64,000 nucleotides of DNA from Devriesea agamarum (GTDB lineage Bacteria > Actinomycetota > Actinomycetes > Actinomycetales > Dermabacteraceae): positions 372,001 to 436,000 of the forward strand of contig NZ_LN849456.1 of the NCBI RefSeq assembly GCF_900070355.1, written 5' to 3'. Positions 30,130 through 37,512 of the stretch are shown here, piece after piece (position 1 is the stretch's first letter; each line of letters begins with the position of its first letter). The notes beneath the pieces are model-generated. The model was not told the origin of the DNA and made no database searches. It saw only the letters and a program-made list of their open reading frames with translations. Both the position numbers and the translations under genes were made by a program.

Positions 30130-31203
30130 GTGACCTCCCCGACTCGTCCCCTCCTCAATGACCGCGGCTACGGTCTGAGCTCGGGCGATTTCCGCGATGA
30201 CGCGGATCAGTCTGGCCGCACCACGGGTGCTGGACAGGCCAACGCTGAGCTCGACCATGATGCATCGCGGTGCGACACGCCCGGGGTGCCCTCCGCAGTT
30301 CGGACGCGCGGACGCTGGGCAACCTGGCGGTCCACTGCGCGTGCCTATGTGGCCTTGACCAAGCCTCGCATTATCGAGTTGCTTCTGATCACCACGATTC
30401 CGACCATGTTCTTAGCTGCCGGTGGATTCCCATCCTGGTGGCTCATCGCAGCCACGGTGATCGGAGGGTATCTGGCCGCCGGTGGTGCGAACGCCCTGAA
30501 CTGTTACTTGGACCGCGATATCGACGCGCGGATGAAACGAACTAAGAATCGTCCGATTGTTACCGGCGAAGTGGGGCCCCGAGCTGCCGTGGTGTTCGGC
30601 CTATCGCTGTCGGTGCTGTCGGCGATTTGGTTATGGGTTCTTGTCAACCCGGTGTCATCCCTGCTCGCGGTCGCGGCGATTTTGCTCTACGTGGTGTTTT
30701 ACACCATGGTGCTTAAGCGACGGACCAGCCAGAACATCGTGTGGGGAGGGGTGGCAGGATGCTTCCCCGTCCTCATCGGTTGGTCCTCAGTGACCGGCAC
30801 TGTGTCCTGGTCGGCTGTTTTCTTATTCCTGGTGATTTTCTTCTGGACTCCGCCGCACTATTGGCCGCTGGCAGAGAAATTCACGGAGGACTACCGGCGC
30901 GCCGGTGTGCCCATGCTTCCGGTGGTTGCCTCACGGCGCACTGTGTCCTTGCAGATGATCGGACACACGGTGGCGATGTTGCTAGCCAGCTTTGCCATTA
31001 TTCCGTTGGAGGGAACCGGCATTGTGTACGGGGTGGCCGCGGTCGGGTGCGGAGCCTGGTTCCTGGCACTGGTCATCCGTTATGCGGTCCGGGTGCATCG
31101 AGGGGTGACCGGTAAGGCGTTGAACCCAATGGGCGTTTTCCACGCCTCAATTACCTATCTGACCTTGCTGTTTGTAGCGCTCGCGATTGATCCGTTCGTC
31201 TGA
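30130..31203 (+). CDS. ctaB: Protoheme IX farnesyltransferase (heme O synthase)
   Basis: A 357-residue UbiA-family membrane prenyltransferase that attaches farnesyl to heme B to give heme O for cytochrome oxidases. The first aspartate motif is [19 protein letters not shown] (about residues 123-141) and the second region [13 protein letters not shown] follows near 255. Seven to nine hydrophobic segments follow a polar 60-residue N-terminal extension. It is divergent from tkt as in other actinobacteria. xerD begins five bases after the stop. Confidence 0.95.
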
Positions 31204-31207
31204 GCCG

Positions 31208-32236
31208 ATGCCCACGGGAACAGATCTTCCCGCGGTGCTCAACCGGGTGATCGATCGTTATCTTGCCTACTTGCGGATAGAGCGAGGCCTCGCGGCCAAT
31301 ACGATCAGCGCGTATCGACGCGATCTCACACGGTATGTCCACTATCTCGTAGCCGCCTGTCCGGACCATGCCCCTGATGCGCTACTGGCCTCGGTCGATC
31401 CTCACACCGTGTCCGAATACATCGCGGTGCTACGCACGGGTGAGGATGGAGGAAAACCTCTCGGTGCGGCGTCCGCGGGTCGTGCCCTGGCCGCAATGAG
31501 AGGCCTGCATCGTTTTCTTGCCGATGAGGATGCTCCGTCGTTCGCTGTTCGTGCGGCCCCACCTAGGTCACACCTGGTTGGTCCGGGGGCTGCCACAGAT
31601 GACCCAACCCGGGATATTACTCCTCCTCGCAGACCCGACCGGTTACCTAAAGCACTCGGCGTTGACGAGGTATTGCGCCTGATGGAGACTGCGCACGGCG
31701 ATGCGCCTGGCTTGCTAGGCCCCGAGCGCGGAGTGCGAGATGCCGCCCTATTGGAGTTGCTGTATGGAACCGGCGCGCGGATCTCAGAGGCAGTGGGGCT
31801 GGATGTCGATGACATCGACTGTGAGCGGGCAGAAGTGCTGCTCACCGGCAAAGGTAATAAGCAGAGGATTGTTCCGGTTGGTCGGTACGCGCTGGAGGCA
31901 GTGTCGGCGTATTTGGTTCGGGGGCGACCGGCTCTCGCTAGGCGCGGCACCGGATCATCGGCGCTGTTTCTCGGTATTCGCGGGACGCGTCTGACCCGTC
32001 AGGCCGCATGGGCAGTGGTGCGCGAGATCGCTGAACGGACCGGGATCGCCGAGTCCTTTGGACCCCACACCCTGCGACACAGTTATGCGACCCATCTGGT
32101 GCAGGGCGGAGCAGATGTGCGGACGGTTCAAGAGCTCCTCGGGCACGCCTCGCTCACCACGACCCAGATGTACACCAGGGTCACGGTGGACTCACTGCGG
32201 GAATCGTGGGCGCTGGCCCATCCGCGTGCGCGCTGA
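31208..32236 (+). CDS. xerD: Tyrosine recombinase XerD
   Basis: A 342-residue tyrosine recombinase that, with XerC, resolves chromosome dimers at dif. The SAM-like core-binding domain covers residues ~12-105 and the catalytic domain carries Arg in [12 protein letters not shown], Lys in [21 protein letters not shown] (His and Arg), the His in [10 protein letters not shown] and the nucleophile Tyr in MYTRV. An upstream frame start at 31187 lies inside ctaB; ATG 31208 is preferred. A linker of about 35 residues between the domains is somewhat long. It precedes parA, the conserved actinobacterial order. Confidence 0.95.
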
Positions 32237-32501: not shown

Positions 32502-33374
32502 GTGAGCCACGACAACAGGCAGACGCTGGATATTGATCTCGGCCCCACCGGTCGGCCCCGGCAGAGCTTTCCTGAGCCTCCTGCACTGACCTCCCACGGT
32601 CCTGCGCGGGTTATTTCGATGGTCAATCAAAAGGGTGGGGTTGGGAAAACAACCAGCACGATTAACCTCGGCGCTGCCCTGGCTGAGTACGGTCGGAAGG
32701 TCCTGCTAGTGGATCTGGACCCTCAGGGGGCACTTAGCGCGGGCATGGGAGTGAGCTCATACGATCTTGACGTCACTGTCTATAACCTCTTGCTTGAACC
32801 CGATCACGATATTCGGGACGTCATTCGTACCACTGACACGCCTGATCTGGACGTGTTGCCTGCCAACATCGATCTCTCAGCCGCCGAAGTGCAGCTGGTG
32901 AACGAGGTGGCACGCGAGATGTCTCTGGCGAGGGTTTTGCGGCCCATTTTGGATGATTACGACGTGGTTTTGATCGACTGCCAACCCTCGCTCGGGCTGC
33001 TCACAGTCAATGCACTGGCCGCAAGCCATGGCGTCATCATCCCCCTAGAGTGCGAGTTTTTTGCGCTGCGCGGGGTTGCGCTTTTGGTCGAGACCATCGA
33101 GAAAGTTCAAGATCGCATCAACCCGCGGCTCGAAATCGATGGAATCCTCGCCACCATGTTCGACGCTCGCACGCTGCACACCCGCGAGGTAGTGGCCAGA
33201 GTGGTGGAAGCCTTCCCCGATAAGGTTTTCCACACGGTGATCAATCGGACGGTGAAATTCCCGGACGCATCGGTTGCGGCAGAACCAATTACGAGCTTCG
33301 CGGCCACGCATTCCGGCGCGGAAGCCTATCGTTCCCTTGCCCGTGAACTAATTGCACGCGGCGGCGCTGCGTAA
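32502..33374 (+). CDS. ParA-family ATPase
   Basis: A 290-residue deviant Walker-type ATPase of the ParA/Soj family. The P-loop NQKGGVGKTTSTINLG lies at residues ~44-59, VLLVDLDPQG follows, then DYDVVLIDCQPSLGLLTVNAL. It corresponds by position to Mtb Rv1708, the second ParA-like protein encoded between xerD and scpA, whose role is not settled (it is not the oriC-linked ParA). The GTG start has AGGAAG upstream. Its stop overlaps the rluB start by one base (TAATG), so scpA and scpB, which usually follow, are missing here. Confidence 0.9.
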   Translation: MSHDNRQTLDIDLGPTGRPRQSFPEPPALTSHGPARVISMVNQKGGVGKTTSTINLGAALAEYGRKVLLVDLDPQGALSAGMGVSSYDLDVTVYNLLLEPDHDIRDVIRTTDTPDLDVLPANIDLSAAEVQLVNEVAREMSLARVLRPILDDYDVVLIDCQPSLGLLTVNALAASHGVIIPLECEFFALRGVALLVETIEKVQDRINPRLEIDGILATMFDARTLHTREVVARVVEAFPDKVFHTVINRTVKFPDASVAAEPITSFAATHSGAEAYRSLARELIARGGAA

Positions 33375-34213
33375 TGGTGAAGCAGAGGCGGCGCAGCGCA
33401 TTTACTCCACCGCGCACGGTGCGTTTACGCGACGGTGAAGGCTCAGTGCGTTCTACGCCCGAGCTTGAGACTATCCATGTTGATGGCGGTGAGCGTTTGC
33501 AGAAGATCCTCGCGCAGGCTGGTCTGGGATCTCGTCGCGCCTGCGAGGTTCTGATCGGCCAGGGCCGTGTGTGTGTCGATGGCGTGACTGTCACCGAACA
33601 GGGCATACGAGTGGATCCCCGAACCCAGGCCATTCATGTCGATGGTCGCCGGATTAGGGTGGGCGAGGACAAACTGACCTTAGTGCTGAACAAGCCCCGC
33701 CATGTGGTGACCTCCCTATCTGATCCAGAAGGGCGACGTGATCTCACCGAATTTATTGCCCAAGCTGGGCGGCGGTTAGTCCACGTGGGCCGTCTCGACT
33801 ATGAGACGGAAGGTTTACTGCTTTTGACCGATGACGGAGATCTAGCGCATCGCCTGACCCATCCGAGCTTTGAGGTCACAAAAACCTACGTCTGCGCCTT
33901 CCCCTGCCGCGGCACTTTTCCCCGCGGTCTACTCAAAGCCCTTCGCGACGGAGTGGACCTTGAAGATGGCCCGGCGAAAGCTGATCGGGCCCGGATGCTT
34001 GCCCACGACGGTCGTGAAGCGGTTGTTGAGCTCAGCCTGCACGAGGGACGCAACCGGATTGTCCGGCGCATGTTTGAATCCCAAGGCTTTACCCTGACCC
34101 GGCTAGTGCGCACCCGAATCGGACCGGTTTTACTCGGAGATCTGCGGTCGGGTCAGACTCGAAAACTCACGGACCAGGAGCTTGGGACTCTGTACGCCGA
34201 GGTCGGATTGTGA
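33374..34213 (+). CDS. rluB: Large-subunit rRNA pseudouridine synthase RluB-type
   Basis: A 279-residue RsuA/RluB-family pseudouridine synthase. An S4 RNA-binding domain occupies residues ~35-95 (LQKILAQAGLGSRRACE), and the catalytic domain carries the aspartate in VGRLDYETEGLLLLTDDG near residue 143, with HEGRNRIVRRMF at the C-terminal side. By family it modifies 23S rRNA near position 2605. ATG 33374 overlaps the parA stop, and its own stop overlaps tyrA (GTGA), forming a tightly coupled operon. Confidence 0.93.
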   Translation: MVKQRRRSAFTPPRTVRLRDGEGSVRSTPELETIHVDGGERLQKILAQAGLGSRRACEVLIGQGRVCVDGVTVTEQGIRVDPRTQAIHVDGRRIRVGEDKLTLVLNKPRHVVTSLSDPEGRRDLTEFIAQAGRRLVHVGRLDYETEGLLLLTDDGDLAHRLTHPSFEVTKTYVCAFPCRGTFPRGLLKALRDGVDLEDGPAKADRARMLAHDGREAVVELSLHEGRNRIVRRMFESQGFTLTRLVRTRIGPVLLGDLRSGQTRKLTDQELGTLYAEVGL

Positions 34214-35358
34214 CTGGTGCCCGTGGGCCCGACCCGACGGGTGAGGGCTCATCCACGTTGATCAAAGGTCCAGTACGTCTCATCGGAACCGGCCTGATCG
34301 GCGGCTCACTGGGCCTGGCCTTACGGCGACAGGGAATAGACGTCCATATCGAAGATATTTCGCCGGGGACAGCAGCTCTCGCCGTGGACATGGGAGTCGG
34401 CCGGATCATCGAGGCTGGTGAGGGTCATCCGCAGCTCGTGCTGGTGGCGGCTCCTCCCGACGTGGCGGGCCGTATTGTCGCCCGAGCCCTCGATGAGTAT
34501 CCCTCCGCAGTGATTGCCGATGTGGCGAGTGTGAAGGGGCACGTGCTTGCAGAAGTTACAACGCTCGCAGCACCGAAGAATCTTTCGCGGTATGTTGGCG
34601 CCCACCCGATGGCAGGCAGAGAAGTGACCGGGGTCATGGCAGCTCGGGCTGACCTGTTCGGAGGTCGCCCGTTCGTGATTACACCCCACGCTGGGAGCGA
34701 CCCAGCTGCGGTGCGCACGCTGACCTCACTGGCCGTTGACCTCGGCGCATTTCCCGTCGAGATGGACGCGGCGTTGCACGACGAAGCGGTTGCTTACGTC
34801 TCCCACGTTCCGCAACTCGTGGCGAGCCTGCTGGCGACACGTCTACTCGATGCTCCTGACCGAGCTTTGGACCTTGCGGGACAGGGGCTGCGTGACACCA
34901 CCCGGATTGCTGCCTCGGACCCGCGCCTATGGGTTGAGATCCTGACCGGAAACACGCAGGCGCTGAAGCCGGTTCTGTCTGGGCTGCGGGATGACCTCAA
35001 TACGGTGCTGGATGCTTTGGAAGGCCGTGGGCAGCTGCGCAGAAGCATTGCTGAGACCATTGCTAACGGAAACCGCGGCGTCGCCCGGATTCCAGGGAAG
35101 CATGGCGGGCGAGCCGATGCCTTTGCGGAACTGACCGTGATTGTGCCCGACCGCGCCGGAAAACTAGCGGGTTTGCTCGCAGATATCGGGGATGCGGGTA
35201 TTAACCTAGAGGATCTCAGACTGGAACATTCTGTGGGGCAGGACGTCGGTTTAGCCCATGTCTCGGTTCAGCCCAGCGACCGCACAAGCCTTGAACGCAC
35301 CCTCACCGCCGGTGGGTGGAAAATTGCGTCGACGGAAGACGGTGACGGTGCCCGGTAG
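34210..35358 (+). CDS. tyrA: Prephenate dehydrogenase with ACT domain
   Basis: A 382-residue enzyme converting prephenate to 4-hydroxyphenylpyruvate for tyrosine synthesis. The Rossmann motif IGTGLIGGSLGLALR is at residues ~25-39; DVASVKG, GAHPMAGRE and the substrate region DEAVAYVSHVPQLVAS follow. Residues ~305-375 form an ACT domain (LTVIVPDRAGKLAGLLADIG), the usual site of feedback binding by an amino acid. Its GTG overlaps the rluB stop. Its position between rluB and cmk is seen in Micrococcales. Confidence 0.93.
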   Translation: MTGARGPDPTGEGSSTLIKGPVRLIGTGLIGGSLGLALRRQGIDVHIEDISPGTAALAVDMGVGRIIEAGEGHPQLVLVAAPPDVAGRIVARALDEYPSAVIADVASVKGHVLAEVTTLAAPKNLSRYVGAHPMAGREVTGVMAARADLFGGRPFVITPHAGSDPAAVRTLTSLAVDLGAFPVEMDAALHDEAVAYVSHVPQLVASLLATRLLDAPDRALDLAGQGLRDTTRIAASDPRLWVEILTGNTQALKPVLSGLRDDLNTVLDALEGRGQLRRSIAETIANGNRGVARIPGKHGGRADAFAELTVIVPDRAGKLAGLLADIGDAGINLEDLRLEHSVGQDVGLAHVSVQPSDRTSLERTLTAGGWKIASTEDGDGAR

Positions 35359-35361: not shown

Positions 35362-35394
35362 TTCTCGGTGCAACCGGCCCAATCGGAGGAATAC

Positions 35395-37512
35395 ATGATT
35401 GCCCATCGCCCGCTCATCGTCGCGATTGACGGACCATCTGGTTCGGGCAAGTCCACCGTCTCGCGCCGGGTAGCTGACCATCTCGACGGAGGTTATCTCG
35501 ATACCGGTGCAATGTATCGCGCTGCCACCTGGTCGTGTCTGCAGCTGGGGGTTGACCTTAACGACCAGGCTGCTGTGGCCGAAACAGTTGCGCGCCTAGA
35601 CTTTTCGCTCAGCACCGACCCATCCGATCCCCGCCTCGTGGTGGATGGACAGGCGTTGGACAGTGAACTGCGTACGGAGGACATCACCCGGGTGGTTAGC
35701 ACTGTCGCCACGAACATTGAGGTTCGGGCGATTATGCAGCGCATGCAGCGAGCCTTGATTGAGCGGACTGCTCGAAGTCGAGGGGCCTGTGTGGCCGAGG
35801 GGCGAGACATCACCACGGTGGTAGCTCCGGACGCCGATGTGCGGATTTTGTTGACCGCGAGTGACGAAGCGAGGATGGCACGCCGGGCACGCCAACTAAA
35901 TTTGGACGGGGCCGATACCGATCCGTCGGTCACCGAACGCATGCAGGACCAGGTGCTGCGCAGAGACCGCGATGACGCCACCGTGTCCCAATTTCTTACC
36001 GCCGCAGACGGCGTGATGACCATTGATACTTCAGATCTCGATATTGATCAGGTCGTATCAGTTGTGCTCGATGAGGTTGAGGCTGCTCGGCGCGAGAATG
36101 CCCTACGCGAGGGGCTGGGGGACTATGACCTCGATGAGGATGATCTCGCACTGCTCGACAATTCGCAGTTCGATGACTTATCTGAGGACACACCCCGGAC
36201 GTTGCCGGTGCTCGCCGTGGTGGGCCGCCCCAATGTTGGCAAATCAACGCTGGTGAACCGGATTCTTGGCCGGCGTGAAGCGGTGGTAGAAGACGTTCCC
36301 GGTGTGACCCGCGACCGAGTTTTCTACCCTGCTGAATGGTCAGGTCGCGACTTTTTACTGGTGGATACCGGGGGATGGGAAGGCAAAGTTCAGGGCATCG
36401 CCTATCGGATTGCTGAGCAGGCTGAAGCCGCTGTTGAGCTCGCCGACGCGGTGCTCTTTGTCGTCGATGCCAATGTCGGCATGACCACGACCGATGAACA
36501 ACTGGTGAAGGTTCTGCGGCGCAGTGGACGCCCGGTCATCTTGGCAGCAAACAAAGTCGATGACGAGCGCGGCGAGATCGAAGCTGCGGCGCTGTGGAAC
36601 CTTGGACTTGGCCAGCCGTATCCGGTCTCCGCGTTACATGGGCGAGGCTCAGGCGATCTGCTCGACGCCGTGCTGGATGCGTTGCCGCAAGAGGGTAGGG
36701 GATTGGCGCCCCAAAGTGGTCCCCGGCGAGTAGCGTTGGTGGGACGTCCGAACGTCGGTAAGTCGTCACTGCTGAATCAGCTTGCGGGCACTAACCGCGT
36801 GGTGGTTGATGATGTTGCGGGCACGACCCGGGATCCCGTGGACGAACTCATTGAATTGGGTGGGCGCACCTGGACTTTTGTGGATACCGCGGGCATTCGC
36901 CGGCGGGTGGCGCAGAGCCGCGGCGCAGATTTTTACGCCTCTCTGCGGACGCAGTCAGCGTTGGAAAAGGCTGAGGTAGCGATTGTTCTGCTCGAGGCTA
37001 GCGAGACGATTTCCACCCAAGACCTCAAGATCATCGATATGGTGCTTGAATCCGGGCGTGCGCTGGTGATTGCCTTCAATAAATGGGATTTGATCGATGA
37101 AGAGCGACGGCATCAATTAGAGCGCGAGATTGAAAAAGATCTGGCGCATGTGAGCTGGGCTCCTCGGGTGAATCTCTCGGCTCGCACCGGTCGCCACACA
37201 GAGAAGCTGGTTCCGGCTCTGGATCGGGCGTTGGCCTCGTGGGACACTCGGGTTCCGACTGCTCGGTTGAACGCATTTCTGGGAACGTTGGTTGCTGCTC
37301 ATCCTCATCCGTTGCGCGGTGGCAAGCAGTCCCGGATCCTTTTTGCCACCCAGGCTCGCACCCGGCCGCCGAGGTTTGTCATTTTCGCTAGCGGGTTCCT
37401 CGAGCACGGTTACCGTCGCTTTATTGAGCGCCGTCTGCGCGAAGACTTCGAGTTCACGGGGACTCCGCTCGAGATTGGTGTGCGAGTTCGGGAAAAGCGT
37501 AAGCTTCGCTGA
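35395..37512 (+). CDS. Bifunctional cytidylate kinase / ribosome-assembly GTPase Der
   Basis: A 705-residue fusion. Residues ~1-225 are cytidylate kinase (P-loop [31 protein letters not shown], and [17 protein letters not shown]), phosphorylating CMP. Residues ~265-705 are Der/EngA, with two GTPase domains ([12 protein letters not shown] with ANKVD, then [12 protein letters not shown] with FNKWD) and a KH-like C-terminal domain; Der matures the 50S subunit. cmk and der are neighbours in other actinobacteria, and this joined form is known from some of them. ATG 35395 has GGAGG; GTG 35368 is an alternative start six bases after a -10 box, adding nine residues. Confidence 0.95.

Follow-up and report, generated by a model that had tools for sequence, protein, structure and literature searches.

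Loss of SMC-ScpAB across the family Dermabacteraceae and a conserved nuclease-free JetABC/MksFEB complex, a candidate chromosomal condensin

A review describes Smc, ScpA, and ScpB as occurring in almost all actinobacteria (PMC4255298). The Jet and Mks complexes have equivalent subunits, namely JetC or MksB (the SMC ATPase), JetA or MksF (the kleisin), and JetB or MksE (the KITE protein). JetABC is the SMC motor, and cutting is done by JetD (PMC10586767, PMC10123090); suppression of plasmid transformation in Bacillus subtilis required all four Jet subunits (PMC10586767). Corynebacterium glutamicum retains Smc-ScpAB, and its Mks acts against plasmids (PMC10123090); in this bacterium, smc is dispensable because FtsK compensates (PMC11898615). 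The nuclease-free MksBEF of Pseudomonas aeruginosa is reported to help organize the chromosome (PMC10586767), and this organism also has SMC (PMC7485682). MukBEF apparently took over from Smc-ScpAB in its lineage (PMC10586767). For Bifidobacterium longum, only a distant MksBEF homolog is reported, and in three gut species, a known condensin was not detected (PMC10197239). How Wadjet, MksBEF, MukBEF, and Smc-ScpAB are related by descent is presented as an unsettled question (PMC10586767). In the literature searched, to the extent that the texts were accessible, we found no report of SMC loss or of a sole Mks complex in Dermabacteraceae.

We analyzed a 64-kb stretch of the Devriesea agamarum genome (hereafter, the window; C1:372001-436000) and compared the genes found there and elsewhere in this genome with these systems. 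Smc-ScpAB is the usual condensin of the order (342/361 sampled non-family genomes) and is present in one family member, G044; here, none of its three subunits was matched over the cut-off. The complex that is present resembles P. aeruginosa MksBEF in consisting of an SMC ATPase of the Jet/Mks kind, a KITE protein, and a kleisin and in the absence of the JetD partner, and differs from it in that MksBEF coexists with SMC, whereas D. agamarum has lost SMC-ScpAB and has the three genes spread out. With the type I Wadjet (JetABCD, MksBEFG) of C. glutamicum, it shares homologous JetA, JetB, and JetC (PF11855, PF13835, and PADLOC JetC1) and the order F-E-B; unlike that system, the conserved copy in Dermabacteraceae lacks JetD/MksG, has spread-out genes, and has lost an N-terminal motif of JetB. 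The compact jetABCD operon of type I Wadjets is not seen in D. agamarum, where the genes span 9.3 kb with other open reading frames (ORFs) interspersed. Enterobacterial MukBEF is a precedent for the displacement of Smc-ScpAB by a Muk-type complex (PMC10586767), in another lineage; no MukB family was among the 12 Pfam matches of the D. agamarum JetC.

The parA-rluB junction and the absence of SMC-ScpAB

The neighborhood in the window consists of the following features, all on the forward strand:

31187..32236, forward: xerD-like tyrosine recombinase (PF00589, 1.7e-44; PF02899, 1e-14), the upstream marker of the conserved neighborhood
32502..33374, forward: parA-like ATPase (PF13614, 8.5e-62), of the kind that precedes scpA in other Actinomycetes
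33372..33376, forward: TAATG, overlap of the parA stop and the rluB start, read from the sequence; the scpA-scpB site in 71/71 named outgroup loci
33374..34213, forward: rluB-like 23S rRNA pseudouridine synthase with S4 and PseudoU_synth_2 domains (PF00849, 3.3e-21; PF01479, 9.6e-12)
34210..35358, forward: tyrA-like prephenate dehydrogenase (PF02153, 9.1e-21; PF20463, 1.7e-17), a downstream marker
35368..37512, forward: ORF of 714 aa (ORF and translation), a downstream marker that, by inspection, resembles a cytidylate kinase-GTPase Der fusion

The last A of the parA stop codon TAA (33372-33374) is the first base of the rluB ATG, with zero intervening sequence, so that the overlap and the absence of scpA and scpB between the two genes, as described in the original prediction, are borne out by the sequence. 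Using the window ParA as the query, we compared named genomes. Among the best 80 of 586 loci, parA is followed by scpA and then scpB in all 71 loci from outside Dermabacteraceae, which makes the order parA-scpA-scpB-rluB, taken as standard in the prediction, the norm and the absence in D. agamarum real. Within the same best 80 of 586, rluB lies 1.5-2.8 kb after parA in 68 of these 71 outgroup loci and had zero matches within the sequence examined at the other three, and the nine loci from Dermabacteraceae, including Brachybacterium, have the direct junction, their parA and rluB matches lying 15-111 bp apart. The parA-like ATPase was matched in all 47 genomes of our family sample, which may overlap with the nine named loci; the junction is direct, with zero ScpA and ScpB matches at the parA locus, in all 39 SMC-less genomes of this sample whose locus was examined. 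The D. agamarum genome encodes a second ParA that adjoins parB and is separate from the parA in the window.

This genome, the one to which the genome-wide ScpA search was applied, is complete (one contig, 2.96 Mb, 99.99% complete), and the six-frame search of it yielded 0 ScpA matches (PF02616) at E<=10, with 9/14 controls over the cut-off, and 0 ScpB matches (PF04079) at E<=1. Relocation of the two genes, which the prediction had named as the outcome that would reduce the observation to a rearrangement, is thus refuted. There was also no SMC match over the cut-off (TIGR02168/SMC_prok_B, 567 bits); 11 weak matches were obtained at E<=0.01, and the top one, at 31.4 bits, is the JetC frame. In agreement with this result, the smc site is empty: ftsY has no preceding smc, and the gene after it, which by position is ffh, gives another, weaker TIGR00064 match.

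In the family sample (47 genomes, 42 of them with completeness >=90% and contamination <=5%), neither ScpB nor SMC was detected over the cut-off in 46, the same cut-offs being exceeded in 9/14 (ScpB) and 10/14 (SMC_prok_B) controls. ScpB matches below the cut-off were found in 11 of the SMC-less genomes, with a best E of 0.0046. The sole exception is G044, whose proteins were checked; in this genome, smc immediately precedes ftsY, and scpA follows parA, with scpB about 32 kb away (L154, L153, and L001) and zero rluB matches in L153 or L154. We regard the family-wide loss of SMC-ScpAB in Dermabacteraceae as secure. The suggestion that the organism lacks ScpAB was true and understated, given that SMC is also without a match over the cut-off and that the loss is family-wide. 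The variant in which ScpAB was lost and SMC retained, which the prediction considered the notable case, was rejected for lack of any SMC match over the cut-off.

A conserved JetABC/MksFEB set without JetD

All three JetABC/MksFEB genes were identified in D. agamarum, outside the window:

C1:1332092-1335481, reverse: JetC/MksB, 1129 aa (PADLOC JetC1, PDLC00518, 1156 bits; PF13555; PF13558)
C1:1336635-1337372, reverse: JetB/MksE (PF13835, 1.9e-41; PF21980 MksE, 5.7e-10)
C1, about 1339929-1341395, reverse: JetA/MksF (PF11855, 3.1e-130, 435.7 bits)
L165, 8636-9373, and relatives: JetB N-terminus with the lost motif

JetC/MksB and JetA/MksF were each found in all 34 SMC-less family genomes sampled, and G044 has both (35/35 for JetA); JetB/MksE was found in 46/46 SMC-less family genomes and in G044 (47/47). 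For G017, the recorded JetA belongs to the second, Wadjet copy rather than to the conserved one.

In the JetC tree, the 18 conserved proteins group in a single clade (SH-aLRT 100) that excludes the JetC of G044 and the two second copies, belonging to Wadjets, that were included. The nearest neighbors of this clade are type I Wadjets; the deeper order of the tree is unsure because it was built with a quick method and produced long-branch warnings. Between the tree of the conserved JetC and that of ParA, RluB, and XerD (17 taxa), 8/14 splits are common, and there is no conflict at 95%. Walker A, signature, and Walker B motifs are invariant in all 18 aligned conserved JetC. Identity to the D. agamarum proteins is 69-77% for JetC, 64-74% for JetA, and 62-67% for JetB; the housekeeping proteins used for comparison showed 63-73% (RluB), 50-59% (XerD), and 80-86% (ParA). 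With dN/dS values of 0.04-0.27 (five pairs, three genes), these data demonstrate purifying selection and vertical inheritance of MksFEB.

Where an SMC-less genome has the three genes on the same contig, the order F-E-B on a single strand is always retained (30/30). In these 30 genomes, the A-B-C span is 5.5-81.5 kb, with a median of 24 kb, and is compact solely in G045 and G046; G017 was left out of this count, as were G011, G018, and G019, whose genes are split between contigs. The span is 5.4-5.6 kb in 13 systems chosen for comparison (nine from other families and four Wadjet copies from this family). An operon into which other genes insert without the loss of any member looks like one encoding a housekeeping complex.

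The JetB motif L(W/F)..D, located just before DUF4194, is absent in 17/17 conserved family copies and present in 46/47 other Jet/Mks proteins, all but that of G044. The candidate interpretation of this motif as the docking site of JetD was weakened: it is kept in the JetD-less systems of SMC-bearing genomes (8/8), so that docking of the nuclease is not its whole meaning, and the alignment of solved JetB chains is poor at the motif.

For JetD itself (PF09983), there were 0 matches and 0 candidates in the D. agamarum genome. The whole-genome search yielded zero JetD_C matches in 28/34 sampled SMC-less family genomes. In four (G006, G017, G019, and G036), JetD_C is near a second, separate JetC copy; in addition to the conserved copy, these genomes carry another JetA-B-C set, apart from it, that has JetD close by. 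G024 has a short JetD_C frame of 241 aa, far from its JetC, and G002 one of 74 aa. A custom JetD model, built from 13 sequences free of frames overlapping the JetC 3' end, matched 30/30 Wadjet loci, 10 of which contributed to the model, as well as both family Wadjet loci read (L260 and L262) and the G044 locus, also in the model. The same model had zero matches in the examined stretches of the 18 conserved loci; in three of these (L279, L280, and L261), the sequence behind JetC is short (0.7 to 1.6 kb), and there the whole-genome JetD_C search decides.

The absence of JetD does not by itself indicate a takeover, since JetC without JetD is common beside SMC: no JetD_C match was obtained in 61/133 SMC-bearing non-family genomes with JetC, and as a stand-alone proof, the missing nuclease was rejected for this reason. 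These 61 genomes may represent a reservoir of Mks complexes without the nuclease. The JetD model gave zero matches at the eight SMC-bearing, JetD-less loci that were read (L264-L271); in these loci, JetA, JetB, and JetC are compact, and JetD was not found.

Timing of the loss and the order-wide sample

In a tree of ParA and XerD with 15 outgroup rows from named genomes, of which 5 were less than half filled, all 17 SMC-less rows group together (100/99), and G044 is the weakly supported sister of this clade (82/58). A single loss on the stem of the SMC-less clade would explain this topology; because the family is one clade, it counts as one event.

The order-wide sample comprised 396 genomes (361 non-family and 35 family genomes), with SMC scored at E<=1e-60. 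At this threshold, SMC was detected in 342/361 non-family genomes vs 1/35 family genomes; 327 of the 343 matching genomes exceed the curated cut-off. The SMC-less genomes number 53/396, with 34 from the family of the window and 19 others, of which 15 belong to a single family (code f4), which we guess may be Bifidobacteriaceae, and the remaining ones are G160, G202, G366, and G371. Outside the family of the window, JetC is present in 6/19 SMC-less vs 133/342 SMC-bearing genomes, so that an order-wide association of SMC absence with JetC presence was rejected as proof, and the argument rests on conservation within the family. Zero JetC matches were obtained in 13 of the 19 non-family SMC-less genomes, and thus, no condensin was found in these 13: SMC loss needs no substitute, and cells apparently can live with neither SMC nor JetC.

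A possible chromosomal role of MksFEB

The explanation that we favor, with a probability of roughly 0.58, is that a nuclease-free complex of the Wadjet type is now the chromosomal condensin of the SMC-less Dermabacteraceae. Under this scenario, the ancestor of these bacteria, once it had diverged from the G044 lineage, would have lost the entire SMC-ScpAB, that is, smc beside ftsY and scpA-scpB between parA and rluB, and in the same lineage, a type I Wadjet/Mks complex without JetD/MksG would have become fixed. By analogy with P. aeruginosa MksBEF and enterobacterial MukBEF, MksFEB would most likely act on the chromosome as an ATP-driven, loop-extruding condensin; given the absence of JetD, it should act on DNA without cleavage, and segregation of the origin would stay with ParABS. 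We infer chromosome folding by MksFEB and its standing in for SMC-ScpAB, and folding appears to be the likeliest use of this complex in cells without SMC-ScpAB. As for the earlier suggestion that another complex is used, the conserved MksFEB/JetABC set without the nuclease gives it substance, and the chromosomal part of the role is what we deduce.

The odds lean slightly toward a further proposition, that this is a second, independent case, after MukBEF, of a nuclease-free Wadjet-type complex becoming the only condensin of a lineage and displacing Smc-ScpAB. If so, an anti-plasmid machine would have been converted in nature into one that organizes the chromosome, and a single family would display both states: four genomes carry a separate Wadjet with JetD in addition to the disarmed, spread-out copy that the examined SMC-less members have. 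The complete disappearance of SMC-ScpAB combined with the retention of nuclease-free JetABC in one family makes the question of origin testable.

The strongest alternative, which we consider unlikely although it deserves serious attention, is that the family has no chromosomal condensin at all, with ParABS and FtsK sufficing and MksFEB engaged, for example, in repair or silencing of foreign DNA. The dispensability of C. glutamicum smc via FtsK (PMC11898615) fits this possibility, as do the 13 genomes of the order without SMC and JetC and the frequency of nuclease-less JetC beside SMC, where it need not be a condensin. The segregation machinery is also in place: ParB was matched in 43/47 family genomes, ParA and ParB are adjacent in D. 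agamarum, and the 3.5 kb beside its parB (L278, 2786-6276) contain 10 parS-like sites with <=2 mismatches, where 0.01 are expected. Against this alternative, all three MksFEB subunits are kept, inherited vertically and conserved about as well as housekeeping proteins, a pattern that demands a core function, and chromosome organization is a reported role of P. aeruginosa MksBEF, which has no nuclease either (PMC10586767).

It is considerably less probable that MksFEB remains a defense system, whether through a nuclease provided in trans or by restricting plasmids without cutting. The affinity of the conserved JetC clade to type I Wadjets and the separate, JetD-associated JetA-B-C sets of G006, G017, G019, and G036 are compatible with such a role, which is, however, at odds with the lack of a JetD_C match in 28/34 sampled SMC-less genomes, with the vertical inheritance of a complex whose genes are spread over up to 82 kb, and with the requirement of all four Jet subunits for plasmid suppression in B. 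subtilis (PMC10586767). Finally, that the SMC-ScpAB genes were relocated or escaped assembly or annotation is extremely improbable, despite the scpB of G044 being able to sit 32 kb from parA-scpA and the sub-cut-off ScpB matches in 11 SMC-less genomes, considering the negative six-frame search of a 99.99% complete, single-contig genome and the 45 further family genomes that also lack a match over the cut-off.

The SMC-less Dermabacteraceae offer cells where ParB-parS must act without SMC to load. No parS-like sites were detected within the 64-kb window. Between 1 and 16 such sites occur near parB in 16 other family genomes, several genomes of the Brachybacterium type having just 1-3. A parS pattern special to the SMC-less members was not found, G044 having 14 sites near parB. 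The D. agamarum ParB (L278, 6820-8856, equivalent to C1:1996819-1998855, reverse strand) has a usual-looking start, MTQKRGLGRGLGALIP, which is separated from the ParB_N domain by a stretch of about 400 residues rich in Ala, Gly, Ser, Thr, and Lys with a VDMFF-like motif. Inserts in front of ParB_N are 184-429 residues long across the nine family genomes examined, including G044.
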